Under the pieces are notes generated by a model. The model was not told where the DNA came from. It did not search any database and saw nothing but the letters and a program-made list of their open reading frames with translations. Below are positions 1-64,000 of a DNA stretch of 64,000 bases, piece by piece. The first letter of the stretch is position 1. Every line of letters starts with the position of its first letter. Location of the stretch: positions 19,509,537-19,573,536 of the forward strand of contig NC_134428.1 in the NCBI RefSeq assembly GCF_030867145.1, written 5' to 3'. This stretch comes from Opisthocomus hoazin. Taxonomy: Eukaryota > Chordata > Aves > Opisthocomiformes > Opisthocomidae. Position numbers and translations under genes: made by a program.

Positions 1-8
1 TTCTCTAG

Positions 9-3000
9 ATGCCTTCCAAAGACCTACAAGCTGTTCCTGTTTCTTCTGCCGCTCCTGTTTCTACTAGGTACGTGAATCGCTTAGTTATACTACAGACCGG
101 TGTATGCTTACTGCAGCCGTTCCAAGAGAGCGTTTTTAGTTGAGCTCTCGGTTTGTGAAGAAGACGCAGAAGCAAAAAAGAGCAAGTTTGTTTGTGACTA
201 GGGCAGCAATTCAAGCTTTCAAAGTACTGACAAGTCAGTAGCCTTCCCCTTGCCGTGAAAGGAATACCCTCAATTTAATTTCGTAGAGCTCTTTAGAAAG
301 TGAGAGTGGGTGCATAAATGCACTGAAGTCCTTTTTTCTTCACCTCCCTTGATAAGAATATCAGTGAGGTCACAAAGAGCAGGTTGTGTACCGATTGCTT
401 TGATTGTTGTTAATCTCCGTAAAAGTGGGGTTAGGTTCTTTGAGCAACTCATCCGAAGTCTTTCCCTTGCTCTGGACCATCCTTGAGTTGCTTAAAATAC
501 TGCTGTTTAGACTGGTTAGTTGACAGTATTCCAGGCCAGCTGTCTTCTTTGAAATAAACAAACTCAGTTTCGAACACTTGCTGAAAGTGGTGGGCTGTTT
601 CTGAAAAGCAGGTTCATGTCTTCGCATGTCCTAAAAACTTTAGAAACTACTCTGGGGAGAAGATGAAGCTTCGCAGAAACTTACAGTCAGGATTGAAAAT
701 CCTCTCTACTAGGGAGAATAAGAAAGGAAGAACTTCCCTACCCTGTGTAGAAAGTGCTGCTACTTCTTGCTAAGACAGTGCAAAAACAAGCGTCATGTTT
801 GTGAACTGCGAGATTGCCTAATATCTAACAAAAGTTGGAAGAAACTTGGGCTTCCGTGGAAACAATGTGGTATGTAGTACGTAGGGTACAGGGCAAGATA
901 TTTTCCATGGAGATAAAAAGCAGTTTTTTACATCTGCCTTCAGTGAGCATGGCCTGTCTTAATTGGTAAATGAGATCTAGGTCCCAGGGACGCAGTAGTA
1001 TGAGATTGAGGATATACCATGAGACATAAGCGCAAGCTGCCTGCCATACAACGGTGTGAGCGGTACTGATGGATGTTCCCCAATGTGCTTGAGTGCTTGA
1101 CTTCACAGTTTGACAGCTGGCTCATACTGATTTTTGTTTAGACTGGAGTAGTGTGCGCTGTGTGACGTCTAGCTTGCAAACTTAAGGTAGCTTGTGTCAC
1201 GAAGTAGGAAGACGACCTGTAGATCTAAGCAGTCTTCAGGGGGAATTCTCTTGAACACCCTTTTTGCCTTTTGTTTGTGATCTAGGTATATGGTTCTGGG
1301 GGTTTGATGGCTGCTTCTCACTATTACCTTTGTTGAACTGGATCAAAATTGATAGAATACAGAGAACAGAGGACTCTCTCCGTGTTCGTGAACCGCAGGC
1401 TGATTCTTTGCACTCTGTGCAACCTCCAGAGGTAAGGGAGAACAGTCTAGGGAAGAACTCTGGTATCTTGGAAGACTTCTTAACTGCCATGCCTTCAATA
1501 TTTGGCAAGAACTACTTGACACACAAGGCTAATGTGAATAAATGTCTTGATCTTTACATATATTAAAAAAATATTCTGTATACCTTAGGATTCCATCAAC
1601 ATCTTTGCTTCTGGTCGTGAAAGTGAGCTGGAAAAGCAAATGGCCTTTCTGTCTGAGAGATACCATCACCTTGATGAAAAATATAGCAAAGTGATGCTTC
1701 TACTCCAGAACCTTCAAGATCAGGTTGCCCAGAAAAGTGACAAAAGCGAAACATTGACGCTAATACGAAATATGATGGGTCAACATCCTCAAGATGTGAG
1801 ACTGGAGCAAAAGGTAAGATAGTCAGTTGTTGGTGCTTTTGGGTGGTGATCGACGTATCCTGTTTTAGTAATGCAGATTGCTAGCCATTTGATTCAGGCT
1901 TGCGTCCAATTTTGTGAGCAAAAGTGATTTGCAGCCTTTTCTGCGGGATCTAGAGTTGCAGATCCTCCAGAAGATCGCTCTCCATATGTCTGTGACAAGC
2001 CAAAAGCTAACATCTGCAGTAGTAACAAAGGCTGTGACTAATGCAGGGGTTCGTGGAATCACAGAAGCGGTGAGTGAGTTGAAGTTCTCGCAAGTTCAAC
2101 TAAAACCGTCAGGAGTCCTTTTCTAGGCATTTTTTGGAGCATCGCAGTCAATATAAATGTCAGTGACTTGAAGAGATGTTTAGAACATGAATTGAAATGG
2201 GGAGAACTACAGAAAATGCTTGATGAAGCGTACGCTTACAGCATTGCTTGTTGCCTGTTGCGAATGTTGTTTTTTTTTTTCCAAAGTATGCTATCTTGAA
2301 AATTGCAGAATTCCCAAAAAAACAGCCATACCAAAGCAATGCAGCTCAGGGTCTGGGGAAGGTGGGGGAAAGAATGCAACCTTTGAAGAAAGCACCAGTC
2401 AATATGCAGTATGAATTTGTATTTTAAGCCAAAAAACCATGCACTAAAAATGGCCTCTGTCTTGAGAGAGGCTTTCAAAGACTTGCGATGGAGTGCAGCA
2501 TCTCAAAAAGATGCTTATTCTACATGTATACAGATGTGTATAGATCAATTACTTTATCAGTTGATATTATTAAATTCTTCCCTTTCTCCCCTTCTGTGTG
2601 TATATCTGTAGCAAGTCCAGACTATTGTAAACAATGCCCTGAAACTTTTCTCTCAAGACAAGACTGGTATGGTGGATTTCGCCTTGGAATCTGGAGGTAA
2701 ATAGTGGAGGAAACTCCACTTTCACGATTCGTGTTATTTTATAGTATCTACTAAAAATGTCGAAAGATCTGCTTGCGTGGGGTGTACGCACCACTGAACT
2801 CGCTAGGGAAAATGTGTATGTTTTAGCCCTCTGAGGTGAAAAACCTTGAACATGCTGAAAAGAACACTGTACTTGATAGAAGCATTGTATCCCCAGCCAA
2901 TGACTAGACTTGAACAGTATCTTTACTAGTTGGTTTTGAGGAAAAGAACTGGTATGTTCACGAAGCTTTGTACAAATCTCTGGCTGAAAAGTCTTCAGGA

Positions 3001-5317
3001 AGAAATGAGTAATTATTTCGGCTAACCTGATACCTCTTTTTTAAGGTGGCAGCATTCTGAGTGCTCGCTGTTCTGAAACCTATGACAGCAAAACAGCAGT
3101 GATCAGCCTCTTTGGAATTCCTCTGTGGTACCTCTCTCAGCCTCCAAGGGCGGTGATTCAGGTAATTAAAGGCCGAGTGAAGAAATTCAGCAATGTTATT
3201 TTGTGCTGAGGGGTTTGGATTGTTTCTTGGATGCTGGATGTTTCTGTCTGCAACACACTGTGGGGCACGGGTCCTTTGAACGATGTTCCCAAGAGTGCCA
3301 TTCTTCTGGTAGTTCCTGGGCACTGCTCAAGTCGTCTTCTAGCAAAACAAAGACCCTGCTAGGAGGCTTGGGTGGTACACTGGACTTCTGCAGAGTGTGA
3401 GCACTGGGAAGGTTCCTGTTGTGAAGTAGTCTCCAGGCGGATCTTCAAAACGCTGCTGGCTGTTTGGGTGGATGTGCTGTCTCCCTGAAGGATGCTACCA
3501 AATAGATTATATTCTGCCACTTACTCTCTAAGACTGTCCCTAATAATTCAGAATTCGCCACAACTCTTTCTGGCAAAATGCTTGTGGCTGCAGGTTTTGT
3601 TGTTGCTGTTGTGTTCCATCCTGTTCTCTCCGCTTTCCTCCTGTCTAGCCGGACGTGTATCCAGGAAACTGCTGGGCTTTCAAAGGATCACAGGGGTATC
3701 TCGTAGTTCGACTTTCAAGGAAGATCTATCCGACTGCCTTTACGTTGGAACACATCCCAAAAGCACTTTCAGCAACAGGAGAGATCTCCAGTGCTCTGAG
3801 GAGCTTTGCAGTATATGTAAGTCTGTCTGTGAACTTCAGAGGATATTTGTATGCATAAAGAATATTTGTGGCGCAGATCTTGGAAAATAAGGACTGAAGG
3901 GAGGACAGCTAAGGAGAGAAACTGCTTGCTTTTAAAATTGCTGTTTTTGTAATCAGCTTTGAGATTAGGAATAAGAAGTGTTGCAGCTAATTTTGAGGGA
4001 GCTGTTTCTTTTTTTCCTGCTTTATACAGTAGTAAATATTTTTGGAGGGAGGTGACTGTTTTTGATTTGGTATCGTTCTTTCAGGCACTGGAACTGTTCC
4101 ATCCTTCCACCACTCCTACTGCTTACCCTCTCCCTCCCCAGTGTTGGCTTTGCATCTTGTCTGTGATGTGCCTTCAGTGTGTTTTAAATTGATTTTAACT
4201 AGCACCACAGCTGCTTAGGCAGGACTGCAGAACAGAAGACCACAGGCTACATCAGAGTGTAGCTGTGATCCCTGAGAACATTTGTCTAGCTCCATTAAAT
4301 GCTGAAGCCGCCGTCTGCAAGCATCTGAATCTTGGCTTCCGTCTTGTTTGTGATGTTGCTGTTTTCTCATTCTTGTTTTTCCTGAGCAGTTTACATTGTC
4401 CACTGCGATCTTGGTTGTGCCATGGAAATGATGGGGTTTGACCATGAAAACAGCAACATACAAACATAGCACAGCTCTTTGCAGTTCAGGAAAGTCAAAT
4501 GCAGAGCTGTGGCTGAAGAAGCATGAAGTTCCACGGGAAGTATTCTGATCTCGGTTTCAGAGACTTGCGTTGACAGGCAGTTAGGTAGGCATGCTTCTGG
4601 CTTTGGTTTGACTTGAAATGTGATGGAAGCAAACGTCTTTCTCCTGTTGTTGTAGGGTCTAGATAATGAATATCAAGAAGGCGGCAAGCTTCTAGGACAG
4701 TATGTCTACGACCAAGACGGAGAACCACTGCAGACCTTTCCAGTGATGGTAAGTCTGGATGAGAAGATTTCAAGTGTCAGAAGAAGCACACGCATATTTT
4801 CTAGGGTAGTGCACAATGAGCAGTGAAGGAAAAAGGCTTCATTCTCTGTTGGGCACTGTAGAAACTGAGGTGGAAAGTAGCTACTGATCTGCCTCAAAAC
4901 CTAAGGTTCGGATAGTTTAGAGGGGAGGAAAGTTTTGTGCCAGGTGGACACAAGTGGTGTGAAGATACCGAACGTATGAGGAGTCTGCTTCATGCTGCTT
5001 CTGACTCCCTTCACAAAAAAAACCCCAACAAACCGGTTGTAAGGCAAAGAAGGTTCTGTTCCAAGTGGCAGAAGGTTCCCAAGGCATCACTCAGTTATTA
5101 ATCAAAGTTGGTAGTTGCAGGAATGAAGGAAAGCGCCTTCAGTTGCACCTGTTTATACTCCAAACCGAACTCTGGTTTGTGTGTTTGTTTTTTCCTTCTG
5201 CAGGAGAAAAGTGAAAACGCATTCCAAATAGTGGAACTGAGAGTGTTTTCTAACTGGGGACATCCGGAATATACCTGCCTATATCGGTTCAGAGTGCATG
5301 GGAAACTTGCCGAATAA
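9..5317 (+). CDS. SUN1: SUN1-like copy S1, 3' half (5' end outside window)
   Basis: SUN1 sits in the inner nuclear membrane; its C-terminal SUN domain binds KASH proteins in the perinuclear space, forming the LINC complex. Exons by similarity and GT-AG sites: 9-67 (membrane segment, CLPKTYKLF...), 1286-1431, 1589-1813, 1898-2069, 2612-2696, 3046-3161, 3649-3816, 4656-4748, 5204-5317 (stop TAA). The last five exons carry the SUN domain. They keep the Cys of RCSETY (the KASH disulfide Cys by alignment to SUN2 C563), the GNCW and YTCLYR cysteines, the TLEH histidine and the HPEY tyrosine. Odd: only 84 bp separate exons 1589-1813 and 1898-2069, where mammalian SUN1 has about 115 residues of coiled coil. 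The donor is phase 0 and the acceptor phase 2, so direct splicing shifts the frame and soon hits a stop. It may therefore be a pseudogene or be spliced around. Introns show nothing else recognisable. Confidence 0.85.
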
Positions 5318-5409
5318 TCTCCAGCACTTCAGCTTGGACTGGTTTTACGGTTGTGCATTTTGTTCTCGATTTTTGTATATGCCGGAAAGCCTAGAAGACT
5401 GGAATCTTG

Positions 5410-6357
5410 CCTTTTTCTTCGTGGAGGCAGTCGTGATGCGTGGGGCTGACTGCCTAGGTCTGGGCAAGCCCGTGCGTGGGCCTTCGTCCGCCTCGTCATT
5501 TGCCTGCCCCTCCGGTTCCATTGCCTCATACCTATTGCGTCAGGGCACCTGGTGTGGAGAGGGAGGCCAGGAGGGGATTCGCCTGCCGCCCCGAGCAGGG
5601 ACCCGTTTCCATTCCCCGCTGTCTCTCAGGTGCTCTCCTTCAGCCTGGTGGCGAGAGGGCAGGGGATCTTCTGCTTCTTGCGGAACATCCATCCTGTGCG
5701 CTTGTTTCGGGGGTGGCAGGGCATGGCTCCACCAGTCTATTTCCCCCTCGCACTCCCTGATGCTCCTGAACCTTTCTGCCTCCTCTTTGAGCTCTGCCAC
5801 CAGGACGAGCAGATCATCCACCTGGTCACAGCGCACGCAGGCGTTCTGCCTGCTGCCCTCCCATACCAGTGACAGGCTCGGGCACTCCCTGCAGCCAGAG
5901 ACCTGCACAGCTGCCTGTTTATGCGGGAGCTCTGTCTGGGTCGCCGTATTCCGCCTGGTGACGGCTTTCAGGCGAGTGGAGACCCTAGCTACTAGCTGAG
6001 CAAGTGATGACCACCGGCTGAATTTACCCTGGTAGCTGGCCGAGCCTCGGGGCCCTGCCTGCGCCAGCTGCCGTGCCAACTGCCGTGGCAGGCCCTGTTT
6101 GCCTGTCCTAGTGGCCGCACTGCGGGTCGCTCGTGCTCCCTCGGGGCTGCTTTTGTGAGGGGGGAGGGTGCCGCCGTCACTCTTGACCCTGCTCTTCTTT
6201 GGGGGAGGGGGGTTTGGGGGGGCACGCTCTCTCTCGCCAGGCGGCTGTCTCGGCTGTTGTGCCGCTGAGAAAAGGTTTCCCCGGTGCGATCACTCGCTCC
6301 GGAGCCCTTCACTGTGCGGTCTGTTCTTCTCTGCTGCCTCCAAACTGACAAGATGCT
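5410..6357 (-). pseudogene. CR1 ORF1 N-terminal part and 5' leader (inverted), U1
   Basis: Read on the minus strand, this gives a bird CR1 ORF1-type protein. Motifs in order: TQTELPHKQAAVQVSGC, two Cys pairs (CREC and CVRC), a short leucine-rich coiled coil (VDDLLVLVAELKEE) and REC.GEIDWW. The frame stops after PHQVP (stop at about 5540); similarity resumes in another frame as RNRYEAMEPEGQ and ends at STKKKA near 5410, just before the SGNH-esterase domain would begin. It is thus frameshifted and truncated. The region right of about 6080 is GC-rich and probably the element's 5' leader. The plus-strand 233-residue frame here is a shadow. Confidence 0.7.
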
Positions 6358-6362
6358 GTTGA

Positions 6363-7994
6363 GAGGATGCAGAGAAGGCAGAGCTACTGAATGCCTTCTT
6401 TGCTTCAGTCTTCAGTGCCAAGGCAGGCCCTCAGGAATCCCAGGCCCCGGAGGTAAGAGAGGAAGCCTACAGAGAGGATGACTTTCCCTTGGTCGAGGAG
6501 GACTGTGTGAGGGATCGCTTAAGCGATCTGGACGTCCACAAATCCATGGGCCCCGATGGAATGCACCCACGAGTGCTGAGGGAGCTGGCGGATGTCATTG
6601 CTGAGCCACTCTCCATCTTCTTTGAGAGGTCCTGGAGGACAGGAGAGGTGCCGGAGGACTGGAGAAAGGCCAGTGTCACTCCAGTCTTCAACAAGGGCAA
6701 GAAGGAGGACCCAGGGAACTACAGGCCGGTGAGCCTCACCTCCATCCCGGGAAAGGTGATGGAGCAGCTTATCCTGGAGGTCATCAACAAGCAAGTGGAA
6801 GAAAAGAAGGTTATCAGGAGTAGTCAGCGTGGATTCACCAAGGGGAAATCATGCTTGACCAATCTGATAGCTTTCTACGATGACATGACTGGCCGGGTAG
6901 ATGAAGGGAGAGCCATAGATGTTATCTACCTAGACTTCAGCAAGGCTTTCGACACAGTCTCCCATAATATCGTCCTAGGGAAGCTCAGGAAGTATGGGCT
7001 GGATGAGTGGTCGGTGAGGTGGATTGAGAACTGGCTGAATGGCAGAACTCAGAGGGTTGTCATCAGCGGCGCTGAGTCTAGTTGGAGGCCGGTAACTAGT
7101 GGTGTCCCCCAGGGGTCAGTACTGGGCCCAGCCTTGTTCAACTTCTTCATCAATGACCTGGATGAAGAGTTAGAGTGTACCCTCAGCAAGTTTGCTGATG
7201 ACACCAAACTGGGAGGAGTGGTAGATACACCAGCAGGCTGTGCTGCCATTCAGCGTGACCTGGACAGGCTGGAAAGTTGGGCAGAGAGGAACCTGATGAG
7301 GTTCAACAAAGGCAAATGCAGGGTCCTGCACATGGGGAGGAACAACCCCAGGCATCAGTACAGGCTTGTGGCGGACCTGCTGGAGAGCAGCTGTGCGGAG
7401 AGGGACCTGGGTGTCCTGGTGGACGACAGGTTAACCATGAGCCAGCAGTGTGCCCTGGCTGCCAAGAAGGCCAATGGCATTCTGGGATGCATCAAAAGGA
7501 GTGTGGCCAGCAGGTCGAGGGAGGTTCTCCTTCCCCTCTACACTGCCCTAGTGAGGCCTCATCTGGAGTACTCTGTCCAGTTCTGGGCTCCCCAGTTCAA
7601 GAAAGATGAGGAGCTACTGGAGAGAGTCCAGCGGAGGGCTACAAGGATGGTGAGGGGACTGGAACATCTCTGCTATGAGGAGAGGCTGAGGGAGCTGGGC
7701 TTGTTCAGCCTGAAGAAGAGAAGGCTGCGAGGGGACCTAATAAATGCTTACAAATATCTGAAGGGTGGGTGTCAGGAGGATGGGGCCAAGCTCTTTTCAG
7801 TGGTGCCCAGTGACAGGACAAGGGGCAATGAGCACAAACTGAAGCACAGGAAGTTCCGTCTGAATATGAGGAAGATTTTCTTCCCTCTGAGGGTGACGGA
7901 GCACTGGAACAGGCTGCCCAGGGAGGTTGTGGAGTCTCCTTCTCTGGAGATATTCAAGACCCGCCTGGACAAGGTCCTCTACAACCTACTGTAG
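6363..7994 (+). CDS. CR1 ORF2 fragment: reverse transcriptase, open (U1)
   Basis: An uninterrupted frame runs from 6363 (just after an in-frame stop near the inversion junction) to the TAG at 7992-7994. The first ATG is at 6489, giving 501 residues. RT motifs counted from that Met: FSKAFD at 150-155, GVPQGS at 205-210, FADD at 235-238. The C-terminal CR1 signature [18 protein letters not shown] is present. Full-length CR1 ORF2 has an N-terminal endonuclease that is absent here, so this copy cannot be autonomous. Copy-specific: codon 7572-7574 gives Ser where U2 and U4 have Cys. An AATAAA at 7739-7744 could serve as a polyadenylation signal for SUN1 transcripts reading in. Confidence 0.9.
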
Positions 7995-8199
7995 GTGACC
8001 CTGCTCCGGCAGGAGGGTTGGGCTAGATGACCCACAGAGGTCCCTTCCAACCCCTACCATTCTGTGATTCTGTGATTCTGTGAGATGTTTAAAGAAAAGA
8101 GTTTTAATTTTTGAAAGCGCGCGTAATGCTTGAAAGAAGAAATCAAAGTTTCTTTCCTGTATTTTTGATCACCTGCTGCAATCGCTAGGCCAGTAAAAC

Positions 8200-8600
8200 C
8201 CAAGGAGTGCCCCTTGCCCGAGGGGCAGGCGCAGGGGCTTTGTTGCCAAATGCCTTCTCCCCCTTCCTCTCTCCCCCCGGCTGGGTCTCAGCGGTCTGCA
8301 ATACCCTCTCCCCAGTTCGTGCCTGAGATGTTGGGGCTTGGGTTCATTCCGCTCTCTGAGCCCCCTTCCCTCAGCTGCGTCGATGGCGGCCGCGATGATG
8401 GCGGCGGAGCAGGAAGCCGTCAAAGGCGGCGGCAGGAACCGCGGCGGCGTGCAGCGCGTGGAGGGCAAGCTGCGCGCCAGCGTCGAGAAGGGCGACTGCT
8501 ACGAGGCGCACCAGATGTACCGGACGCTCTTCCTCAGGTGGGGCCCGGCCCGCCGCCCTGCCCTTCCCTGCCCGGCCTTCCAGAGCCTTCCCACGCACCC
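8200..8600 (+). promoter_or_regulatory. CpG-rich GET4 promoter region, U1
   Basis: A GC- and CpG-rich stretch surrounds the GET4 start codon, with no TATA box evident, as expected for a housekeeping CpG-island promoter. It begins about 120 bp after the CR1 tail. In the array it is the only obvious promoter upstream of the SUN1 5' half. Activity is inferred from composition and position only. Confidence 0.55.
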
Positions 8601-8886
8601 AGCGTAACCACATCTGTTTTGCTTTCCTGGAAGCTTCTCTTCTGATGCCATCAAATGACTATAACTTTTGTGTAAGGGAATGTTGAGACTTGATACTGTG
8701 CCTTAGCTGTAGATGTTGATGAAAAGACTAAATCTACAAAATTCTGGTTGATGTTTTCTTTTCTGTACCGATATGTTCATCACTAGCAGCATCTGTCTGT
8801 TTTGTAGCAAAACAGTGCTGCTGATGTGTCCGTGCTGGGTTTGGAGTCTGGAGAAATCGGATGCAAAAGTAGCAGAGGACCTTTAG
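8383..8886 (+). pseudogene. GET4: GET4 fragment: exon 1 and degraded third coding block, U1
   Basis: GET4 (TRC35) works with BAG6 and UBL4A in handing tail-anchored proteins to the GET/TRC pathway. Exon 1 coding part is 8383-8537: it starts [12 protein letters not shown], contains [20 protein letters not shown] and ends MYRTLFL plus two bases before GTGGGG. A second exon, 8808-8886 (acceptor TTTTGTAG, donor GTGAGG), matches the human block QNSAADLSMLVLESLEKA. The block between them (YMSQSKHTEAREL...) is missing; only about 270 bp separate the exons. In U1 the second exon has lost single bases at three places relative to U2-U4 and is out of frame. A complete GET4 must lie elsewhere if the bird has one. 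Confidence 0.85.
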
Positions 8887-9084
8887 GTGAGGTGACTTTT
8901 GCACTCGCTTTGACGTTGCTCAGATGTGCTTTGAGTTGGAGACTGGTAACAACAGTCACTGTGCAACCTGAAATGCTTTTTGTATGCCCTCCCAGATGGC
9001 TAAGGGTTACCTTCGTCATAGCAATGGACTGGGGGACAACTCGATTAGAGAATAGTGGGTTCCTGATAACTTTGTGGGCATGCT

Positions 9085-9350
9085 TAGAACAATTTTTCCT
9101 GTCAGATTGTGCCAGGGGAGGTTTAGAGGAGATACTGGGATAGATATCTTCACTGAAAGGGTTGTCAAGCATTGGCACAGGCTGCCCAGGGAAGCGGCTG
9201 AGTCGCCATCCCTGGAGGTATTTAAAAGACTTGTAGATGTGGTGCTCAGGGACATGGTTTAGTGGTAGACTTGGCGGTGTTATGTTCATGGTTGGACTTG
9301 ATGATCTTCAAGGTCTTTTCCAACCTAAATGATCCCGTGATTCTACAATA
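9085..9350 (+). mobile_element. CR1 3'-end fragment (second family), U1
   Basis: Forward CR1 tail: its frame reads FTERVVKHWHRLPREAAESPSLEVFKRL then VDVVLRDMV and a stop, followed by the typical CR1 3' end (TTGGACTTGATGATCTTCAA) and ATTCTACAAT. It differs from the larger CR1 upstream, so it is a separate, older, 5'-truncated insertion in GET4 intron sequence. Confidence 0.8.
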
Positions 9351-10684
9351 CAAATGACATTATTACTTTGTAATGTTCTGGGGTCTTTAACGCTTGTGTT
9401 TTTGTTTAGGATTTTGGGGAGAAGGAGCTGCTTTCATTGACAATATTGTGCTCAGCTCTTTTTTTTTATTATTTTTTTAGAAACAAAAGCCCCAGGAACG
9501 TTGGAAATAACGTGTGACATCTCTGTACATCCCTGTGGCCCAAGAAGGGACAGACGCCTTAAGAAAGCTAGCCTAGAACACTGGAGAAAAGCACCGGAGC
9601 GTTTAGATTCTTGGGTCACAATGCTGGGTGGTTCTAGAAGCTGGTCTTCTGCTGCGCAGTGCCCTGTAGCAAGGAGCTCGGCTCAGCTACGCAGCAGTGT
9701 TTCCTTCGAGTGTAAGTATGAGGCTTCTGCTTGAGGCTAAACTTCTGTTTTAGTACGTTTCTTTCCTACCGATTCCTCTGTTTAATCTGTTAGTGATTGC
9801 CTTGTGTTGCTGATTTGCCTTGATTGTAAGTTTTCCTGGGGGTTCTGAGAGAATCAAATGTCGAAGTGCGGAGTAGAGTTCCTGGGGTAATGATGGGAAG
9901 CTTGTCTGCCTGTAAACTTGCCTCTGTAGGATAAACCAGAGAGAAAGGGATGAAAGACAAAACCATTTTTTGATTTGTTCAGAGTTAAAGATTTGTAATG
10001 ATTGAGAGATGAAGAAATCTTTTAAAAACACTTGTTTTTTTTTAAACTCCTGGTAGTTAAACTAGTGTAGCTAAAGTAGGGAGGTCTTGAAGTGTCTTCA
10101 AGTGGGGAAGTTGCTTCTGGGTTGGCGTGTATGAACGTGTGTCCTCATCTTTCCTCTTTCCCCATCCATGTTTCCGTTCTGCCCTCAGACGTGTGCACGT
10201 ACTCACTCTTTTGTTTTAGATGTCTGCCTGCTGGAAATTCACAGTCCAGTGAGTAAACTTGATTTACTGGTGTGGTCAGCATCAGGACGCGTTGCACAGT
10301 CAAGTGAATGTGCCAGGCAAACGTATATGTGATGCAGCACCGTAGATTGTATAGATGTAATTCTCTGTTGTCATCTGTGCATAGAGTACTGTATTTGAAG
10401 AATGGTAAACACGTAGCTTGTCTTTGCAAAGCCAAAGGAAAAGCTTTCTCTTGTTTGTGCATAGCCAGAAGTGTGTTTCAACTTAACATACCTTCACCTG
10501 ACAGTTTCAAATTCGTGGCACTGCAGTGTTTCCTGAGGGGGTTTTTGTCTGTGGCTGGCTGGTTTGTTTTTGCAAGGAGGTACAAGTATGCTTTTCTGGA
10601 ACCTACTTTTTTCGTTGAAGAGGAGAATACTTTACGTAGACAATACTCCAGGTGTTGTGTAGGAGAAGATCAACAAATGACTAT
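9351..10684. other. GET4/SUN1 intron junction region, U1
   Basis: No gene was recognised. Somewhere here, GET4 intron sequence passes into SUN1 intron 1; the exact point is not visible. A deletion junction near 10112 removes the block that holds SUN1 exons 2 and 3 in U4 (56497-57672). Confidence 0.5.
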
Positions 10685-10745
10685 ATCATAGAATCATAGA
10701 ATCGTACGTTGGAAAAGACCTCTAAGATCATCAAGTCCAACCGTC
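10685..10745 (-). mobile_element. Short reverse CR1 3' end with 9-bp flanking repeats, U1
   Basis: Reverse complement reads as a CR1 3' terminus (GGTTGGACTTGATGATCTTA then ATTCTATG repeats), only about 61 bp. AATGACTAT occurs directly on both sides (10676-10684 and 10746-10754), like a target-site duplication. Also present in U4, lost in U2/U3 by the larger deletion. Confidence 0.75.
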
Positions 10746-11925
10746 AATGACTATTTGTTTCCAGTCAGTGTGCCTGTGCCCTGGAGTTGTTTCAATCTCA
10801 GTAGAATGTGTTCGAAACTTTCAAATACCTGGCTCTTCAAACAGAATCTTAAAATACGGTAGTACCGAAGTAGTTACCAAGCAACAGAAACGGCATAAGC
10901 TTGTAATTAGCTGCTTTCAAGTCAGATGGGAGGTAAGAAAAGGTGCAGTTGTCATTCATATTTAGTTTGCTGCTCCCGTGGCAGAATGCTTTTCACTGTC
11001 TGTTACCCTACTACATTGACGTCTGAATGTATGGATCTGTTTCTGTTCATGTAGTGGACTGCAAAATGCATTCAATACCAATCATAAAGTGGCTTTTCTT
11101 TGCAGTATTAAAATCAGTGGGACTTTTAGTGGGACTTTTACTTGGAGTTCTTGTCAGATATCGTAGTTGATTGTGGCGCTTCCTTACTTTTGGGACCAAT
11201 TTTTTTTTTTTCTCCCCCTTGAAGGTCTTGATGGTGAAGGCAACCCTAAATTTAACTATGGTTTCATTTTCTTTCCGAGTGCATTTTATTCCATGGTGAC
11301 TAGCGATGGCGATACTGATAGCAATGCACTAGAGGCTTTCGTACAAGCTTGGCACACTGCTTACCTATTAGGAAAAACAAGGTGTAGGGACAGCATACAC
11401 CTTGTATGTTAGAAAGAAGAAGTCATATTGTTAATTGATTCCACTTTGGGGCAGTTGGTACACTTGACAGGTTGAAAAGCTGCCTTGAAAGGAAAGCAAG
11501 GTATGAGGTATTGGTGTGCAGAAGATTTGAATAAAGGGGTTTTAACATTTTATTTTTGTTCTAGTGAGAGTCAGTTTTTCCAGGAGTCTTCTAGAGGGAT
11601 AGCATCTTCCCTGTGAGATGAGCGTTCGCTAGCTTGAATGACAGAGGCATCAAGAATCTGTGGAGTGCCCTTTATTCAGCAAAGGAAAATGATTTGAGAC
11701 ACTTCAGTCACCAAGATGCTTTGCAAAATACTGGGTTGCTAGATCTACAGTCCCTCAGATGAAGCCAGACATATCTGCTAATCTAAAAATGTATGCGTTG
11801 GCTGTGCTCACGCATTTCTCTGCTCTGCAAAGCATTCTTGGCCACAGTTGCATGTCCCTCTGCTTGGTTCCTTTGAACACGTGCCGCAGTAATGACATTT
11901 CGCGCTACCACTTTTTGTCTTCTAG

Positions 11926-17440: not shown

Positions 17441-17532
17441 TCTCCAGCACTTCAGCTTGGACTGGTTTTACGGTTGTGCATTTTGTTCTCGATTTTTGTA
17501 TATGCCGGAAAGCCTAGAAGACTGGAATCTTG

Positions 17533-52797: not shown

Positions 52798-52806
52798 TGC
52801 TGTTGA

Positions 52807-54438
52807 GAGGATGCAGAGAAGGCAGAGCTACTGAATGCCTTCTTTGCTTCAGTCTTCAGTGCCAAGGCAGGCCCTCAGGAATCCCAGGCCCCGGAGGTAA
52901 GAGAGGAAGCCTACAGAGAGGATGACTTTCCCTTGGTCGAGAAGGACTGTGTGAGGGATCACTTAAGCGATCTGGACGTCCACAAATCCATGGGCCCCGA
53001 TGGAATGCACCCACGAGTGCTGAGGGAGCTGGCGGATGTTATTGCTGAGCCACTCTCCATCATCTTTGAGAGGTCCTGGAGGACAGGAGAGGTGCCGGAG
53101 GACTGGAGAAAGGCCAGTGTCACTCCAGTCTTCAACAAGGGCAAGAAGGAGGACCCAGGGAACTACAGGCCGGTGAGCCTCACCTCCATCCCGGGAAAGG
53201 TGATGGAGCAGCTTATCCTGGAGGTCATCAACAAGCAAGTGGAGGAAAAGAAGGTTATCAGGAGCAGTCAGCGTGGATTCACCAAGGGGAAATCATGCTT
53301 GACCAATCTGATAGCTTTCTACGATGACATGACTGGCTGGGCAGATGAAGGGAGAGCCATGGATGTTGTCTACCTAGACTTCAGCAAGGCTTTCGACACA
53401 GTCTCCCATAATATCCTCCTAGGGAAGCTCAGGAAGTATGGGCTGGATGAGTGGTCGGTGAGGTGGATTGAGAACTGGCTGAATGGCAGAACTCAGAGGG
53501 TTGTCATCAGCGGCGCTGAGTCTAGTTGGAGGCCGGTAACTAGTGGTGTCCCCCAGGGGTCAGTACTGGGCCCAGCCTTCTTCAACTTCTTCATCAATGA
53601 CCTGGATGAAGAGTTAGAGTGTACCCTCAGCAAGTTTGCTGATGACACCAAACTGGGAGGAGTGGTAGATACACCAGCAGGCTGTGCTGCCATTCAGCGT
53701 GACCTGGACAGGCTGGAAAGTTGGGCAGAGAGGAACCTGATGAGGTTCAACAAAGCCAAATGCAGGGTCCTGCACATGGGGAGAAACAACCCCAGGCATC
53801 AGTACAGGCTTGTGGCGGACCTGCTGGAGAGCAGCTGTGTGGAGAGGGACCTGGGCCTCCTGGTGGACGACAGGTTAACCATGAGCCAGCAGTGTGCCCT
53901 GGCTGCCAAGAAGGCCAGTGGCATTCTGGGATGCATCAAGAGGAGTGTGGCCAGCAGGTCGAGGGAGGTTCTCCTTCCCCTCTACACTGCCCTAGTGAGG
54001 CCTCATCTGGAGTACTGTGTCCAGTTCTGGGCTCCCCAGTTCAAGAAAGATGAGGAGCTACTGGAGAGAGTCCAGCGGAGGGCTACAAGGATGGTGAGGG
54101 GACTGGAACATCTCTGCTATGAGGAGAGGCTGAGGGAGCTGGGCTTGTTCAACCTGAAGAAGAGAAGGCTGCGAGGGGACCTAATAAATGCTTACAAATA
54201 TCTGAAGGGTGGGTGTCAGGAGGATGGTGCCAAGCTCTTTTCAGTGGTGCCCAGTGACAGGACAAGGGGCAATGAGCACAAACTGAAGCACAGGAAGTTC
54301 CGTCTGAATATGAGGAAGAATTTCTTCCCTCTGAGGGTGACGGAGCACTGGAACAGGCTGCCCAGGGAGGTTGTGGAGTCTCCTTCTCTGGAGATATTCA
54401 AGACCCGCCTGGACAAGGTCCTCTACAACCTACTGTAG
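52807..54438 (+). CDS. CR1 ORF2 reverse-transcriptase fragment, open (U4)
   Basis: Open from 52807 to TAG 54436-54438; first ATG 52933 (501 residues). FADD and GVPQGS motifs intact. Differs from U1-U3 at many residues yet without any stop, showing how little decay has occurred in any unit. Confidence 0.9.
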
Positions 54439-54635
54439 GTGACCCTGCTTCGGCAGGAGGGTTGGGCTAGATGACCCACAGAGGTCCCTTCCAACCCCTA
54501 CCATTCTGTGATTCTGTGAGATGTTTAAAGAAAAGAGTTTTAATTTTTGAAAGCGCGCGTAATGCTTGAAAGAAGAAATCAAAGTTTCTTTCCTGTATTT
54601 TTGATCACCTGCTGCAATCGCTACGCCAGTAAAAC

Positions 54636-55040
54636 CCAAGGAGTGCCCCTTGCCCGAGGGGCAGGCGCAGGGGCTTTGTTGCCAAATGCCTTCTCCCCCT
54701 TCCTCTCTCCCCCCGGCTGGGTCTCAGCGGTCTGCAATACCCTCTCCCCAGTTCGTGCCTGAGATGTTGGGGCTTGGGTTCATTCCGCTCTCTGAGTCCC
54801 CTTCCCTCAGCTGCGTCGATGGCGGCCGCGATGATGGCGGCGGAGCAGGAAGCCGTCAAAGGCGGCGGCAGGAACCGCGGCGGCGTGCAGCACGTGGAGG
54901 GCAAGCTGCGCGCCAGCGTCGAGAAGGGCGACTGCTACGAGGCGCACCAGATGTACCGGACGCTCTTCCTCAGGTGGGGCCCGGCCCGCCGCCCTGCCCC
55001 TCCCCGCCCGGCCTTCCAGAGCCTTCCCACGCACCCAGCG
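54636..55040 (+). promoter_or_regulatory. CpG-rich GET4 promoter region, U4
   Basis: Same block as in other units, upstream of the only SUN1 5' half with intact exons 2 and 3. Confidence 0.55.
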
Positions 55041-55326
55041 TAACCACATCTGTTTTGCTTTCCTGGAAGCTTCTCTTCTGATGCCATCAAATGACTATAA
55101 CTTTTGTGTAAGGGAATTCTGAGACTTGATACTGTGCCTTAGCTGTAGATGTTGATGAAAAGACTAAATCTACAAAATTCTGGTTGATGTTTTCTTTTCT
55201 GTACCGATATGTTCATCACTAGCAGCATCTGTCTGTTTTGTAGCAAAAACAGTGCTGCTGATGTGTCCGTGCTGGGTTTGGAGTCTTTGGAGAAATCGGA
55301 TGCAAAAGTAGCAGAGGACCTTTTAG
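54819..55326 (+). pseudogene. GET4: GET4 fragment: exon 1 and third coding block, U4
   Basis: Exon 1 coding part 54819-54973 with one change (GGVQH for GGVQR). Third block 55244-55326, in frame. The second block is missing here too, so its loss predates amplification. Confidence 0.85.
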
Positions 55327-55466
55327 GTGAGGTGACTTTTGCGCTCGCTTTGACGTTGCTCAGATGTGCTTTGAGTTGAAGACTGGTAACAACAGTCACT
55401 GTGCAACCTGAAATGCTTTTTGTATGCCCTCCCAGATGGCTAAGGGTTACCTTTGTGAGCATGCTT

Positions 55467-55730
55467 AGAACAATCGTTGCTGTCAGGTTGTGCCTGGGGA
55501 GGTTTAGAGGAGATACTGGGATAGATATCTTCACTGAAAGGGTTGTCAAGCGTTGGCACAGGCTGCCCAGGGAAGCGGCTGAGTCGCCATCCCTGGAGGT
55601 ATTTAAAAGACTTGTAGATGTGGTGCTTAGGGACATGGTTTAGTGGTGGACTTGGCTGTGTTATGTTTATGGTTGGACTTGATGATCTTCAAGGTCTTTT
55701 CCAACCTAAATGATTCCATGATTCTACAAT
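55467..55730 (+). mobile_element. CR1 3'-end fragment, U4
   Basis: Same CR1 tail as in the other units; its frame can be followed slightly further upstream (LRTIVAVRLCLGRFRGD). The 59-bp segment of U1-U3 is absent just upstream. Confidence 0.8.
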
Positions 55731-57027
55731 ACAAATGACATTATTACTTTGTAATGTTCTGGGGTCTTTAACGCTTGTGTTTTTGTTTAGGATTTTGGGG
55801 AGAAGGAGCTGCTTTCATTGACAATATTGTGCTCAGCTCTTTTTTTTTATTATTTTTTTAGAAACAAAAGCCCCAGGAACGTTGGAAATAACGTGTCACA
55901 TCTCTGTACATCCCTGTGGCCCAAGAAGGGACAGATGCCTTAAGAAAGCTAGCCTAGAACACTCGAGAAAAGCACTGGAGTGTTTAGATTCTTGGGTCAC
56001 AATGCTGGGTGGTTCTAGAAGCTGGTCTTCTGCTGCGCAGTGCCCTGTAGCAAGGAGCTCGGCTCAGCTACGCAGCAGTGTTTCCTTCGAGTGTAAGTAT
56101 GAGGCTTCTGCTTGAGGCTAAACTTCTGTTTTAGTACGTTTCTTTCCTGCCGATTCCTCTGTTTAATCTGTTAGTGATTGCCTTGTGTTGCTGATTTGCC
56201 TTGATTGTAAGTTTTCCTGGGGGTTCTGAGAGAATCAAATGTCAAAGTGCGGAGTAGAGTTCCTGGGGTAATGATGGGAAGCTTGTCTGCCTGTAAACTT
56301 GCCTCTGTAGGATAAACCAGAGAGAAAGGGATGAAAGACAAAACCATTTTTTGATTTGTACAGAGTTAAAGGTTTGTAATGATTGAGAGATGAAGAAATC
56401 TTTTAAAAACACTCTTTTTTTTTTTTTTAACTCCTGGTAGTTAAAGTAGTGTAGCTAAAGTAGGGAGGTCTTGAAGTGTCTTCAAGTGGGGAAGTTCTTA
56501 CTTGCTGGGAGATGGAAACTTGGAGTAGTGTGGCATATGGATCTTTGGTTCTCCAAGCAAGGAACGGGCAACCAAAATGTTTAAAATATCAGCTTTGGCT
56601 CTAAATGAGTCTTTACCTTGAAACTCAGAGTGCATCCTGATTTTGAATTTGTGGCTCAGCGTGGCAAAGAAACTGTCCTGAATGGCTTCCTCTCTCCACT
56701 TGGTCCCCAAAGAACTGTGTGTCTAAAGCTGTACAACGAATGCTTGCTCTGGTTTGACTTCAAACATGGGTTTCCGTGGTGGTTGTTTCTTTCTATCTAG
56801 CATTTGCTTTCAGTTGCTCAACTTGCAATGTGAATTGCTGAAGAGAACCTTGACTATCGACGTACTTCTAAGCTGTTTGTATTATGTGGCGTGTCTTGTA
56901 GGAGTTGCTCCATAACCCCGGATAAACTGCTTTGAATGGAAACTCAGACTAGCTTGAAGGGCGTGTTTGTTACGAGGGGAATTTTCTCTTCACCTCAGGT
57001 AACTTTGCTCTTCATGTTTTGCTGCAG
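55731..57027. other. GET4/SUN1 intron junction region, U4
   Basis: No gene recognised. The duplication breakpoint joining GET4 intron to SUN1 intron 1 must lie between 55327 and 57027. Short frames such as 56618-56800 match nothing known to me. SUN1 exon 1 (MDFSRLH... in human) was not found. Confidence 0.5.
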
Positions 57028-60000
57028 TTCGAGTTATTCTTCGTCTGCTTTGGATTTTGAGACTGAAAATAAAATAGATCCAGTATTTGATTCGCCAAGA
57101 ATGTTGCGGCGTAGCTTACGGTTATCTGCTGTGGCATTGAAGAAATCCAGTGTTGCACCAAAGGATACCCATCCTGACAGCTCTTACGCTGGAAACCTGT
57201 CCTTCAGAGAGCAGTCTTCCAAGTAAGCACTTTTTGTCGTCACAAGTTAATTTTTTGGTTGGACTCTTGAGACTTTGCAAAAGCATAGATGTTGGAGGAC
57301 TTTCTTTTAAACCTGATTTGAGCCGTTTAGTCATGTCAGTTTTAACATACCCTGCCTTTCTTTTTCATTTAAAGTGAGAGACAAAGAGAAATTTACATCT
57401 TTCATGCTGTATCGTATGTGTCTTTGCTCTGTTTCATAGGGTGCTGAAGCACCGCCCAAGTGTGAATAAGAAATCTGGCAGTGCAAGACACACACCAAGG
57501 AAGAATCTGTCCCGCTCTTCCATTGTCTGCCAAAGCAGTTTCAATAGCCATGCCAGTGATGCATCAATCGTATCCAGTGCATTGGCTGAATCCCGGATTC
57601 GAGAGCAGAGAGAAGTTAATCATTTCTGGGGTAGGTAATCATTGCCATTGCTTGTATCGGACTGTGAAAGCTGCTTCTGGGTTGGCGTGTATGAACGTGT
57701 GTCCTCATCTTCCCTCTTTCCCCATCCATGTTTCCGTTCTGCCCTCAGAAGTGTGCACGTACTCACTCTTCTGCTGTAGATGTCTGCCTGCTGGAAATTC
57801 ACAGTCTAGTGAGTAAACTTGATTTACTGGTGTGGTCAGCATCAGGACGCGTTGAACAGTCAAATGAATGTGCCAGGCAAACGTATATGTGATGCAGCAC
57901 CGTAGATTGCATAGATGCAATTCTCTGTTGTCATCTGTGCATAGAGTCCTGTATTTGAAGAATGGTAAACACGTAGCTTGTCTTTGCAAAGCCAAAGGAA
58001 AAGCTTTCTCTTGTTTGTGCATAGCCAGAAGTGTGTTTCAACTTAACATACCTTCATCTGACAGTTTCAAATTCGTGGCACTGCAGTGTTTCCTGAGGGG
58101 GTTTTTGTCTGTGGCTGGCTGGTTTGTTTTTGCAAGGAGGTAAAAGTATGCTTTTCTGGAACCTACTTTTTTCGTTGAAGAGGAGAATACTTTACGTAGA
58201 CAGTACTCCAGGTGTTGTGTAGGAGAAGATCAACAAATGACTGTATCATAGAATCATAGAATCGTAGGTTGGAAAAGACCTCTAAGATCATCAAGTCCAA
58301 CCGTCAATGACTATTTGTTTCCAGTCAGTGTGCCTGTGCCCTGGAGTTGTTTCAATCTCAGTAGAATGCATTCTAAACTTTCAAATACCTGGCTCTTCAA
58401 ACAGAATCTTAAAATACGGTAGTACCGAAGTAGTTACCAAGCAACAGAAACGGCATAAGCTTGTAATTAGCTGCTTTCAAGTCAGATGGGAGGTAAGAAA
58501 AGGTGCAGTTGTCATTCATATTTAGTTTGCTGCTCCCATGGTAGAATGCTTTTCACTGTCTGTTACCCTACTACATTGACGTCTGAATGTATGGATCTGT
58601 TTCTGTTCATGTAGTGACTGCAAAATATGTTAAATACCAATCATAAAGTGGCTTTTCTTTGCAGTATTAAAATCAGTGGGACTTTTACTTGGAGTTCTTG
58701 TCAGATATCGTAGTTGATTGTGGGACTTCCTTACTCTTGGGACCAAATTTTTTTTTTTTTTCCCTTTGAAGGTCTTGATGATGAAGGCGACCCTAAAGGT
58801 AACTATGGTTTCATTTTCTTTCCGAGTGCATTCTATTCAACGGTAACTAGCGACGGCGATACTGATAGCAATGCTCTATATGTTTTACTCTTGGTTGGCT
58901 AGGTAGTGGTACTACACTAATGCAGGGAAATGGTGATACAGAAACAGCAGAAAACAGCACAGTGGTCAATGGCTACACTTGCAGGGATTACAGGATGCTT
59001 TCTAAACGGAAGGAGGTTCTGACAGCATACTCGCCTTCTCATGTGCCATCTTCCAGAATTTACTCCAGGGATAGGAGCCAGAAACATGCATCCAGTAAGT
59101 TACTTTCTCTTTTTTTTTTTTCATTTGGTTGGCAGAATGGTGTACAGTTCAGTTCATGCTTTTTTCATGTAGTGTTCTTTAAGTACTCTTCCTGCCCTGC
59201 TAGATTTATCAATATCCAAATTCTAGATATCGGCTTACAAGGAATACCTTCCTCTGTTTCATTTGAAACTTTGCGTACTTGTTGGCTTCTGATATCTAAT
59301 CATCAGCTTTTCTTTTTCAGTGCTACTGTAGGACTTACACGGTTTTCGAATACGTGTCTATTTCTAAGGTTTTGGTAAGGGTTTTCAGATGAAACTGCTT
59401 CTGTATGGTCCAGATTTTTGATGCTTTTTTTTATTGTTACGTGAACTTTCAAAATTGAGCAGAACAGTTACTTTGCAGTGCTTCTGTTATGCAAGAAATT
59501 GGAGAGATGCTGTCCTACTTTGCTTTGGGTTTTTTCTCCTCATTTAACCGTGCAGCTTATTAGAGTGTTTTTAGAAGCTAAACCTCAAGTCCTTGAAAAA
59601 TGGAACTCCAAAGGGGAAAACTGATTCCAGATAGACTCCCTGGTGACCATATTCCTAAAGCTCAAAACCAAATGAATCTGCTGTAAACAAGGTTCTGCCT
59701 TTTCAAGGCAATCTCCATTATAGGGATGCTTGTCCTCAGTGTCCTGACTGCATCTGCCTGCCTCTTGTATACCATCTGTAATTTCTTGATGGTTGGTAGT
59801 CCTCAGTTCTCAGGAAGTTGTTTCGTGAGTGGCCTTGAATTAGGAACCGATTTTGGAATTCTGTCAGTGTGCTATTCTTGAATGAAGTATGTTCTCAGTA
59901 GCAAGAAATCCGTTAGTTTCTACATGAGTAAGATTCTGCGATTGGTCAAACACACTGCAGCATCTTTTGCATCACTGTTAGTGCAACTATTTCAAATGGT

Positions 60001-63000
60001 TTTGCTGAAGCTGGGTTGTGAATTAAAAGGTACCTTTTCAGTTGTCTTCCTTGGTCTCCACAATAAGCTGGAGTGTGTCTGTTGGTTTTTTTTCGTATGG
60101 ACTTCATCTTTGGCACTACGGTGTTCTTTTTCTATAGTCTTTTGGCTGGCTCCTGTCTTTCTCTCTTTTCAGTTGTGCTACCCTTTTCCTACTTTCCCCC
60201 TGTTTTGGAAGTATCAGGATTCACATATGTGAGATATGTGTTACAGTTAAGATTCACATGTTGATTTTGACTAGGAAGTGGTAGAAGGTAATGTTTAAAT
60301 TGAGAAACTGAAGTTGATTTTTTTTTTTTTTAAACTGTTTGCTGTGAGAGTGTCAAATCCTAACTCTTCAATGTCTGTAGGTTTGGACTGACTTCATACC
60401 CTTAAGCCCACTGTGCCATTAAAGCTTGATGAGATCTGTCTTGCAAAACTAAAACTGCTATCATCACTCCGCACTACTCTAAAGCACATCTTGTTTTCCC
60501 CGAAAATGTTCCATTCTTCTTTAGTGCTTTCTCTTCTGTAATGCCTGCTCTGTGAGTGAAGTGAAATTGCCATAGGCAGAAGGTAACTGATTTCTGTGTG
60601 TGAATAAAACTTTGCACTCTCCTGTTCTCTCTGCCTCAGTGCCTTGTAACTTGCTAACGCTCTCTTCTCAGTCTTCTAAGATCTCCGGTAAAACCTGTAC
60701 AAAGAGGTATTGCTTGGCCTGTATTTGCAGGATGATGGGAACAGGAGCTGAAGATTTGAGGAGTTGTTACTTGGGGACTTTTGTACTAACTTTGCTATCT
60801 GAAAAGAAGCAAGAAAGGTTTTTGAATGAAAAGGCCCCCTGTTATTTACAGAAGGAAAAAAAAGAAGTTTGCACAGAGTAGGCTGCTGCTTTGGTTGTTT
60901 TTCAGTTTTTCTGTGACTAACCTGGCTTTAGTAGTGAACCAAGCCAGTTCAGCTGAAATCTGTATCCATGATAGCTCAAATGCGCATATGTGAAAGGCTT
61001 TGAACTTGAGTTACATTCCATGTATGCTGTTTGAATGCGTTGCAGCTCACTCAGACTACTGTGGAAGCATGAATGTAAAGGAGTTTTACAGAGAAGATGG
61101 CCATCTTGGTGTAAATGAGGAATCAATATGTAAGTAGAATGACTGATGTTGTCTTTCAGCCTTGGGCTGTACACCAGGTTGTTGCTGTAACAGTAATATC
61201 AGATGGCCCCTGACTCTAGGGAAGCTGCAAAGTCAACGATTGTTTGGCAACTTGAACGTAGGGGCAAGAATGCCGATTGCCCGGTGTACTGTAAGATTCC
61301 CCCAAGCAAGATTGACTCTGCTGTAGTTTGCTTAGTGGTTTTTGGTTTGATAACTGGTGTGATGACACAGACTTGTTCAAGTTTTCTTGTAAGAATCTTG
61401 ATTTGATCCTGGCTTTGTCCCATTAATCGACTGTTACCACCACCAACCGGTGATGACTGTAAGGGGAAGAAACCTCTTGAACTGTACGCCACAGACCACA
61501 TGCAATCTTTACGGGCTAAAAGGGTAGCAAGGACCATTTGGCACACCTTTTCTTATGCAGGTTGACTTGGACCTTTTTTTTTCTTTTGTTTTTGTTTTGA
61601 ATCGCAATCTCACAATGTTAATCCTACATATTGTTTTGTGTTTGTTTTCTTATCTTCATCTATCAAAGTAGATGAAAAGTGTAAAGTGTCTAGAAAATTA
61701 ATGAACAGCTCTTCTGTTTGATTCTTGCTGTGATACTGGCTTTCGTACGAGCTTGGCGCGCTGCTTACCTATTAGGAAAAACAAGGTGTAGGGACAACAT
61801 ACACCTTGTATGTTAGAAAGAAGAAGTCATATTGTTAATTGATTCCACTTTGGGGCAGTTAGTACACTTGACAGGTTGAAAAGCTGCCTTGAAAAGAAAG
61901 CAAGGTATGAGGTATTGGTGTGCAGATGATTTGAATAAAGGGGTTTTAACATTTTATTTTTGTTCTAGTGATAGTCAATTTTTACAGGAGTCTTCTAGAG
62001 GGATAGCATCTTCCCTGTGAGATGAGCGTTTGCTAGCTTGAATGACAGAGGCATCAAGAATCTGTGGAGTGCCCCTTATTCAGCAAAGGAAAATGATTTG
62101 AGACACTTCAGTCACCTAAATTCTTTGCAAAATATTGGGTTGGTAGATCTATAGTCCCTCAGATGAAGCCAGACATATCTGCTAATCTAAAAATGTAGGA
62201 TTATTTTCTCAATTTGTACTACGTAGTATGTTCTGTAGAATGAGCAGTCCTAGTCTTGGAAATAGTAATTGTTGGCTTCAGTGGGCTTCAAGTCACAGCA
62301 CTTTGTTCTAGTCTGTTGGGGTTTGTTGTTGTTGTTGGTTTTGTTCTTTCTAAGAGCCTCAAAATTGACCTGCTGAAGATCCTTGGGAACACTCAGTTTA
62401 TTGAACATTTACTGCTTGTAACTTTTAGTAGGGAAAATTTCCTATTATTTGTGAGTATTTCTCAGGCATCATTAATTCTTTCTCTAGGATTTAAAACTTT
62501 TAATTGTTCCTTCTTCTACACATGAACCCAGACAATGAACTTGATGTAGAACTCAGAACAAATCAGATGCTTTTAAAGTAATGATGTGCTTAAAACTTGT
62601 TTTTGTGGTACTACTTTTTTACTCTTCTTCTGCACTTAGCATGACATTGTTAGATAAACATGCTGCAAAAGGTAAACTTTGATTTTTGGAAAAGTGATAC
62701 GCTACACAGATGCTGTTGATCATTCTGTTGATCTCTGTAGATGAAAATTGTGTTTCTAAATTGGCTTGCTTTTACTTGGCTTCATATTTATTAGTGGCTT
62801 GCTTTGCTTCTAAACAGTGAAGAACCAAGTCTGTAGATTACTGGAAGGTATGGTTTAAAATATTGCGGAACGTGTGATGTGCAGGGGATCGCATCTGTTT
62901 TTACTGCATGTGCTGGGAAAGAAGATTAAGCGCATATATGTATGTTACCACAAGAAGTGAATTTGTTGTAATCTAGGTTACTTTATGCTTGACGTGTTGC

Positions 63001-64000
63001 AAACAGTGGGAGCAACAGGATGGCTTGTGTCTCAGAAGGTGGTGTCTCTACTTTGGCTGGCCATTCTTTCTCCAGGTGACTGTCTCAGTCTCTCTGTGTG
63101 TGTGTGTGTGCGCGCATTGCCCGTTCCTTTTGACAAACTAGGACTCTGCAGGACATGGCGTACACTAATTCGACTATGCTTATGCTGTAGCTTTGGTGTC
63201 TTGAAATGCATGTGCTGGTTTTCTTTATTGACCAAAATATGCGTAATGAGAGGGTATATTTCTGTTCGCAGGCACAATGGGAGACTAAGCAGACCGTTTC
63301 ATGCGGGAACAAGTGTGTGAATAGCACAGAATATGGGGTGCCAAGAATAACGGGGCATGTTTTGGTTTGGTAGTCACTGCCCATGTTGGTATTCCTCTTA
63401 GCAAAAACTGATGCTGCTAATCTGTGCATTTCTTGAAACATCTTGAACTGTCTTCATTGTGTGGTAACTTCGATTCAAACATTGACTTCTGGCAAGATAG
63501 CGTTGTTCTAACAAATGAGCATTTCATATTTTTGCGTGGCTGTTGGTTTTGTTGAGTAGCTGGTGTTACAATGCTGTCGTGCTTGTGCTATCTAGATGTT
63601 AATAAGCTGCATGCATTGCCTGTGCTCACGCATTTCTCTGCTCCGCAAAGTGTTCTTGGCCACAGTTGCATGTCCCTCTGCTTGGTTCCTTTGAACACGT
63701 GCCGCAGTAATGACATTTCGCGCTACCACTTTTTGTCTTCTAGGGAGGGCAGCTTCTGGCATGTACAGGTTACTCAGAACTGGATGGTATCAACTTGCTA
63801 CTCTGATGTCTTTGCTCAAGGTGTTTCTTCTAAAGAGGTGTGTATCCTTTGAGAAAAGTGTTTTGTGAGCAAATGATTTACCCAGTTATAAAACAATACA
63901 AGAGGAGAAATGTGTTGTTTCATGTGAACTTTCCTCTCTCTTTCTCTAGATGCCTTCCAAAGACCTACAAGCTGTTCCTGTTTCTTCTCCCGCTCCTGTT
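57028..64000 (+). CDS. SUN1: SUN1-like copy S5, 5' half (continues past window)
   Basis: Best-preserved N-terminal half. Exons: 57028-57222 (SSYSSSALDFETENK...; acceptor and donor both phase 2), 57440-57630 (VLKHRPSVNKKSG...REQREVNHFWG), 58772-58798 (27 nt), 58903-59094 (MQGNGDTETA), 61046-61129 (DYCGSMNVKEFYRED), about 61450-61560 (DDCKGKKPLELY; no visible AG acceptor), 62977-63075 (first membrane exon), 63744-63837 (membrane exon), 63950 to window end. Phases agree throughout. Order and residues match the human nucleoplasmic domain and membrane region of SUN1. The putative zinc-binding motif is CRDY here instead of CRDC in U2/U3. SUN1 exon 1 is absent; GET4 exon 1, 2 kb upstream, ends in the phase needed by 57028. 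Confidence 0.85.
58245..58305 (-). mobile_element. Short reverse CR1 3' end, U4
   Basis: Same as 10685-10745 in U1. The flanking direct repeat has one mismatch here (AATGACTGT left, AATGACTAT right). Confidence 0.75.
59095..61045. other. SUN1 intron with 30-bp inversion, U4
   Basis: No exon recognised. Positions 59944-59973 are the exact reverse complement of 25289-25318 (U2) and 42447-42476 (U3), with flanks collinear. The 836-bp segment of U2/U3 is absent at about 59916. Confidence 0.7.
61561..62976. other. SUN1 intron before first membrane exon, U4
   Basis: Nothing recognised; collinear with 26903-28318. Confidence 0.5.
63094..63115. repeat. (TG)n/(CG)n microsatellite, U4
   Basis: Same tract as U2/U3 with a shorter CG part. 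Confidence 0.85.
63942..64000 (+). repeat. Start of tandem unit U5
   Basis: The last 59 bases repeat the start of U1-U4, including the acceptor and most of the last membrane exon. The array therefore continues beyond the window. Confidence 0.9.

Follow-up and report, generated by a model that had tools for sequence, protein, structure and literature searches.

A tandem array built from parts of two adjacent genes, SUN1 and GET4, was found in the hoatzin on contig NC_134428.1 (C15; 26,829,410 bp in an assembly of 1.48 Gb and 415 contigs). The array was probably formed by amplification in place in the hoatzin lineage, with the parent genes kept at its ends and most copies being by-products. The stretch of DNA analysed (the window; 64 kb, C15:19,509,537-19,573,536) lies inside the array, which runs on both sides of it (C15:19.296-19.733 Mb), and the whole locus, from complete SUN1 to native GET4, measures about 440 kb. 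Sequence was read over C15 19.250-19.450 Mb, the window and 19.705-19.745 Mb; the remainder of the locus is known from matches. No report of the hoatzin SUN1-GET4 array was found in the open-licence literature searched.

By self-comparison, the window was resolved from end to end into unbroken head-to-tail copies on the + strand, three of them whole units (17.16, 17.16 and 17.50 kb) and two partial, in agreement with the original prediction of a tandem SUN1-GET4 array of at least five units. With anchors at 11790, 28950, 46108 and 63608, the units are u1 (1..11789; 11,789 bp, cut by the window start and of a short type with large internal deletions), u2 (11790..28949; 17,160 bp, with a 1,239-bp deletion through SUN1 exons A-B), u3 (28950..46107; 17,158 bp), u4 (46108..63607; 17,500 bp, with an 836-bp deletion at SUN1 exon D2) and u5 (63608..64000; the first 393 bp, cut by the window end). 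Differences were counted at 15 of 17,158 aligned sites between u2 and u3 (0.09%), 98 of 11,064 between u1 and u2, and 282 of 16,234 between u2 and u4. Identity between units at such length is far beyond chance.

Each whole unit contains SUN1 exons (labelled A to O, in-house naming), a CR1 piece with a reverse-transcriptase frame, and GET4 exons 1 and 3. The predicted gene content was borne out by matches of the unit exons: the SUN-domain exon matched SUN1 chains in PDB (5ywz, 1.6e-27), a second SUN1 exon matched Pfam HTH_SUN2 (8.8e-08), and GET4 exon 1 matched GET4 in PDB (7ru9, 2.9e-21). The copies of GET4 exon 1 lie at 8383-8537, 20518..20672, 37678-37832 and 54819-54973 (+), and a GET4 exon 3 copy lies at 20943..21025 (+), with exon 2 missing between exons 1 and 3; the exon 3 copy of u1 has a 4-base gap. 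The segment 21136-21194 was rejected as a GET4 exon, as comparison with native GET4 identified it as GET4 intron 3. SUN1 exons F to O of u2 (11926..17440, +) cover the membrane region, the start of the coiled coil, the SUN domain and the stop. In u4, the only window unit with SUN1 exons A and B whole, exons A (57028-57222), B (57440-57630), C (58772-58798) and D (58903-59094) occupy 57028..59094 (+), and exons D3, D4 and E lie within 61045..63075 (+). Whole exons keep their splice sites and frame, with the exception of the exon C donor of u1. No structured RNA was matched in Rfam, and 588 pattern matches on prokaryote contigs included no relatives.

All four of the units u1 to u4 carry lesions. 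SUN1 coiled-coil exons are missing from each, and exon I joins exon J out of frame; in none of the four does one open frame run from a membrane span through a coiled coil to a SUN domain. In addition, u2 and u3 have lost part of exon A and the whole of exon B, u1 has lost exons A, B, D and E together with the exon C donor, and u4 has lost the start of exon D2. The GET4 copy lacks 4.1 kb including exon 2 in u2, u4 and a unit at 19.356 Mb, and all three of these compared copies have also lost the 222 bp immediately upstream of the GET4 start codon. Loss of the coiled coil from every copy of the array was ruled out by the copies at 19.659 and 19.711 Mb, which retain part of the coiled-coil sequence; a frame break in the last exon splits the 19.711 Mb copy.

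The unit junction (21243..21480 in u2, +; right edge approximate) is made of CR1 sequence, with GET4 intron 3 on its left and SUN1 intron 1 on its right, and the same path from GET4 intron 3 through CR1 to SUN1 intron 1 was read in the 19.356 Mb unit. The repeat unit thereby couples segments of two neighbouring genes that run in the same direction (both +). Comparison of these two units with the native genes bore out the expectation that the unit ends in SUN1 intron 1 and a GET4 intron, and placed the native breakpoints in GET4 intron 3 (to about 19,738,194) and in SUN1 intron 1 (from about 19,275,363). The CR1 at the junction extends further 5' than the CR1 in native SUN1. The join itself was observed directly; recombination between two CR1 copies would fit it, and is counted as inferred because native GET4 carries no CR1 at that spot. 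The larger CR1 of the unit has a reverse-transcriptase frame of 543 aa (18498..20129, with further copies from 6363, 35658 and 52807, all +; Pfam RVT_1, 4.9e-33). This frame is open in all four window units despite a difference of 1.8% between u4 and u2 there. The native spacer upstream of GET4 does not contain the larger CR1, the two flanks overlapping there by 13 bp, so this element was probably a later arrival that then spread.

The parent genes flank the array. Complete SUN1 lies at the left end (C15:19,271,294-19,293,951) and is present from its first coding exon, coiled coil included, down to the stop codon. It was modelled as 801 aa, and at one splice in the coiled coil the model is uncertain by a single residue. 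Native GET4 lies at the right end, from its start codon at C15:19,733,331 to the last matched residue at 19,744,571. A run of 68 N (C15:19,733,406-19,733,473; locus L029), either an assembly gap or a withheld stretch, falls in native GET4 exon 1. The location of the array between the two genes points to amplification in place. In a human report, SUN1 and GET4 are described as neighbours in the same order as in the hoatzin (PMC12310479, in the part of the text available).

A 4-kb probe returned at least 47 rows, every one on C15 between 19.285 and 19.732 Mb. Counts were made on the 40 longer of the 47 rows; exon M is covered by none of the other seven. SUN exon M was present in at least 32 of the 40, one being the complete gene, which gives at least 31 further copies; at least 21 copies of GET4 exon 1 were counted outside the native gene. 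A search with the annotated protein P0002 gave at least 68 rows, all within the array interval, with 50 of 418 candidates scored; a weaker SUN1 copy may therefore exist elsewhere. Units follow one another at about 12.1 kb over a long stretch of the centre and at 17.2-17.5 kb in the window, and their spacing becomes irregular towards both ends (4.5 to 27.7 kb). An enlarged chromosome was considered and rejected: 26.8 Mb is not unusual, as 15 of 58 contigs compared, the hoatzin contig included, exceed 25.2 Mb.

Divergence was compared over 18 SUN1 blocks. The central 12.1-kb blocks are 0.00-0.38% apart, the outer blocks from 1% up to 2.60%, and complete SUN1 differs from all other blocks by 3.76-5.27%. 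The centre is thus uniform and the edges are diverged, as in arrays of the macrosatellite type, and a gradient of this kind is usually left by unequal exchange and conversion. At a neutral rate near 2e-9 per site and year, amplification would have started roughly ten million years ago, to an order of magnitude.

At each junction GET4 exon 1 stands upstream of SUN1 exons, and chimeric reading frames result. The end of GET4 exon 1 and the start of SUN1 exon A are in the same phase, so that a direct splice between them is in frame. One chimeric GET4-SUN1 gene model spans u1 and u2 (8383..17440, +; 420 aa), with exons at 8383-8537, 8996-9054, 10220-10303, 11225-11340, 12208-12308, 14021-14192, 14735-14819, 15169-15284, 15772-15939, 16779-16871 and 17327-17440 (+) and GT-AG borders at all introns. 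It is identical to P0236, an NCBI hoatzin protein labelled 'SUN1-like', every letter of which was reproduced by splicing the 11 window exons. The 420-aa frame is open in all eight 12.1-kb units tested (the window copy and seven of seven upstream), the upstream chimeras differing from P0236 by 2-3 residues. Fifteen member sequences, all from one contig, are grouped under P0236. A 248-aa query matched hoatzin P0236 and P0237 at 100%, and for a SUN1 protein stitched from the window the hoatzin 'SUN1-like' proteins P0001 and P0002 were the best among 120 matches listed. P0001 is a related GET4-SUN1 fusion, and NCBI labels the chimeras of the array 'SUN1-like'. The assignment of P0002 to the complete left-end SUN1 was ruled out (28 of 799 aligned residues differ), C15:19.63-19.66 Mb being a better fit. 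All 21 member sequences labelled 'SUN1-like' in the hoatzin, which fall into four clusters, come from one locus and should not be treated as ordinary paralogs. In P0236 the SUN domain was matched by Pfam Sad1_UNC (1.6e-45). The protein has no membrane stretch (highest 19-residue mean, 1.03), part of its frame derives from intron sequence, and its structure prediction was poor (mean pLDDT 48.8, pTM 0.36).

Between the window units pN/pS was 0.88-1.41, and between complete SUN1 and the array it was 1.5 (42 and 8 changes); exons J-O were not significantly slower than the introns between them. Changes between units therefore suggest no clear protein constraint. Among the eight 12.1-kb units, variable sites numbered 6 of 1,263 in chimera exons and 85 of 7,794 outside them (p = 0.046, marginal and uncorrected), with pN 0.0041 and pS 0.0069 for the chimera in the same set. 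CpG loss was lower around GET4 exon 1 (2 of 40) than elsewhere (57 of 309; p = 0.04, marginal and uncorrected).

Complete hoatzin SUN1 is 79-83% identical to the SUN1 of six other birds. One of the six is the Adelie penguin, with which the remaining five share 92-96% identity. In two trees (39 and 48 sequences) it formed a long branch inside Neoaves, joined to parrots with 100/100 support; on its position inside Neoaves, an ancient SUN1 paralog was rejected. As just one rare residue is held in common with kakapo, the grouping with parrots is likelier to reflect long-branch attraction. Long SUN1 branches were also seen in parrots, pigeons, a falcon and kagu; in parrots, pigeons, a falcon and the hoatzin, SUN1 evolves fast relative to most other birds sampled. 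An array is unnecessary for a fast SUN1, since parrots, pigeons and a falcon are fast as well. Additional entries were noted in other birds. The sandgrouse Pterocles gutturalis (P0238, P0246, P0297, P0250 noted) has three 'SUN1-like' entries on contigs of 132.9, 0.21 and 43.1 Mb, perhaps from an independent SUN1 duplication; kakapo has two 'SUN1-like' entries, one long and one short (P0201, P0285), both on 86.46 Mb contigs; and Nyctibius and Cariama each have a second '-like' SUN1 entry.

On the sequence evidence, the array copies are most likely decaying by-products that carry open chimeric frames. They might instead form a young functional family of GET4-SUN1 chimeras, either soluble (P0236 type) or membrane-bound (P0001 type), with a role in germline LINC complexes, which we regard as unlikely. 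Such a role would agree with the 420-aa frame being open in eight of eight short units, the 15 member sequences under P0236, its retained SUN domain, the common phase of GET4 exon 1 and SUN1 exon A, and the weak exon conservation in the eight 12.1-kb units. According to the accessible part of PMC7555797, a lumenal fragment of SUN1 that bears a signal sequence is dominant negative, and this too would favour function. However, P0236 has no membrane stretch and is not expected to enter the perinuclear space, its frame is partly intron-derived, the stretch that precedes the start codon in native GET4 is lost, and pN/pS between window units is near 1. We give little credence to a further reading, in which a young germline family of chimeras disturbs LINC complexes in meiosis or sperm and is in conflict with complete SUN1. 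Its products would be either soluble proteins with a SUN domain or SUN1 that is anchored in the membrane but has no working SUN end. If true, such a conflict would help to explain the low identity of hoatzin SUN1 to the six birds.

That one or two true copies were repeated many times by the assembler is very improbable. Two central 3.9-kb blocks (421757, 433884) are 0.00% apart and u2 and u3 are nearly identical, as an artefact would predict; against it stand the different private deletions of the units, their unequal spacings, the divergence graded from centre to edge, and annotated proteins that fit different units. Least probable of all is an amplicon on a sex or germline-restricted chromosome (GRC), which the original prediction had proposed and for which no support was found, although its reading of the host as a bird with a local tandem amplification agrees with a hoatzin array at the SUN1-GET4 locus. 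SUN1 has a meiotic role, in keeping with such a placement, and bird W chromosomes carry ampliconic gene families. Ampliconic families are likewise described on the songbird GRC in the part of PMC10172847 available, and resemble the hoatzin array, as do the W families, in holding multicopy genes, some with meiotic links. The hoatzin array differs in its position: it sits at the parental locus, between the parent genes on C15, and not on a separate chromosome away from it, and no SUN1 row lay elsewhere among the 50 of 418 candidates scored.

In-place amplification with decaying by-products has partial counterparts in known systems. Macrosatellites such as D4Z4 are tandem arrays of many kb-scale units; each unit has an open frame, and unequal exchange keeps the units alike. 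The hoatzin array is like them in its many kb-scale units, each with an open frame, and in its homogenisation, but differs in having both parent genes at its ends and in its widely varying unit lengths. Sdic of Drosophila melanogaster was born from a duplication that fused two neighbouring genes, an origin like that of the array. It is a species-specific tandem repeat with copy-number variation, conversion and a role in sperm competition, according to the part of PMC7475035 available. The likeness extends to the tandem arrangement with conversion, but the Sdic copies have coding potential and that role in sperm competition, whereas all four hoatzin window units have lesions and the hoatzin array is known from its sequence; it also has far more copies and longer units.

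The array may have arisen as follows. A duplication would have brought GET4 intron 3 and SUN1 intron 1 together inside CR1 sequence. The resulting unit would have lost several pieces, including SUN1 coiled-coil exons, exon 2 of GET4 and the stretch immediately upstream of the GET4 start codon, and gained the larger CR1. Unequal crossing-over and conversion, as the divergence gradient suggests, would then have raised its number to about 31, while complete SUN1 and native GET4 were kept at the ends, presumably doing the work. Most copies would be neutral by-products, probably weakly expressed or not expressed at all. The locus is a clear case of two neighbouring genes giving rise to a chimeric tandem array, with the parents at its ends, intermediates between them and a gradient of homogenisation. 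Germline expression of the chimeras, if it occurs, would mean that a gene for telomere tethering in meiosis is turning into a multicopy family in the hoatzin.
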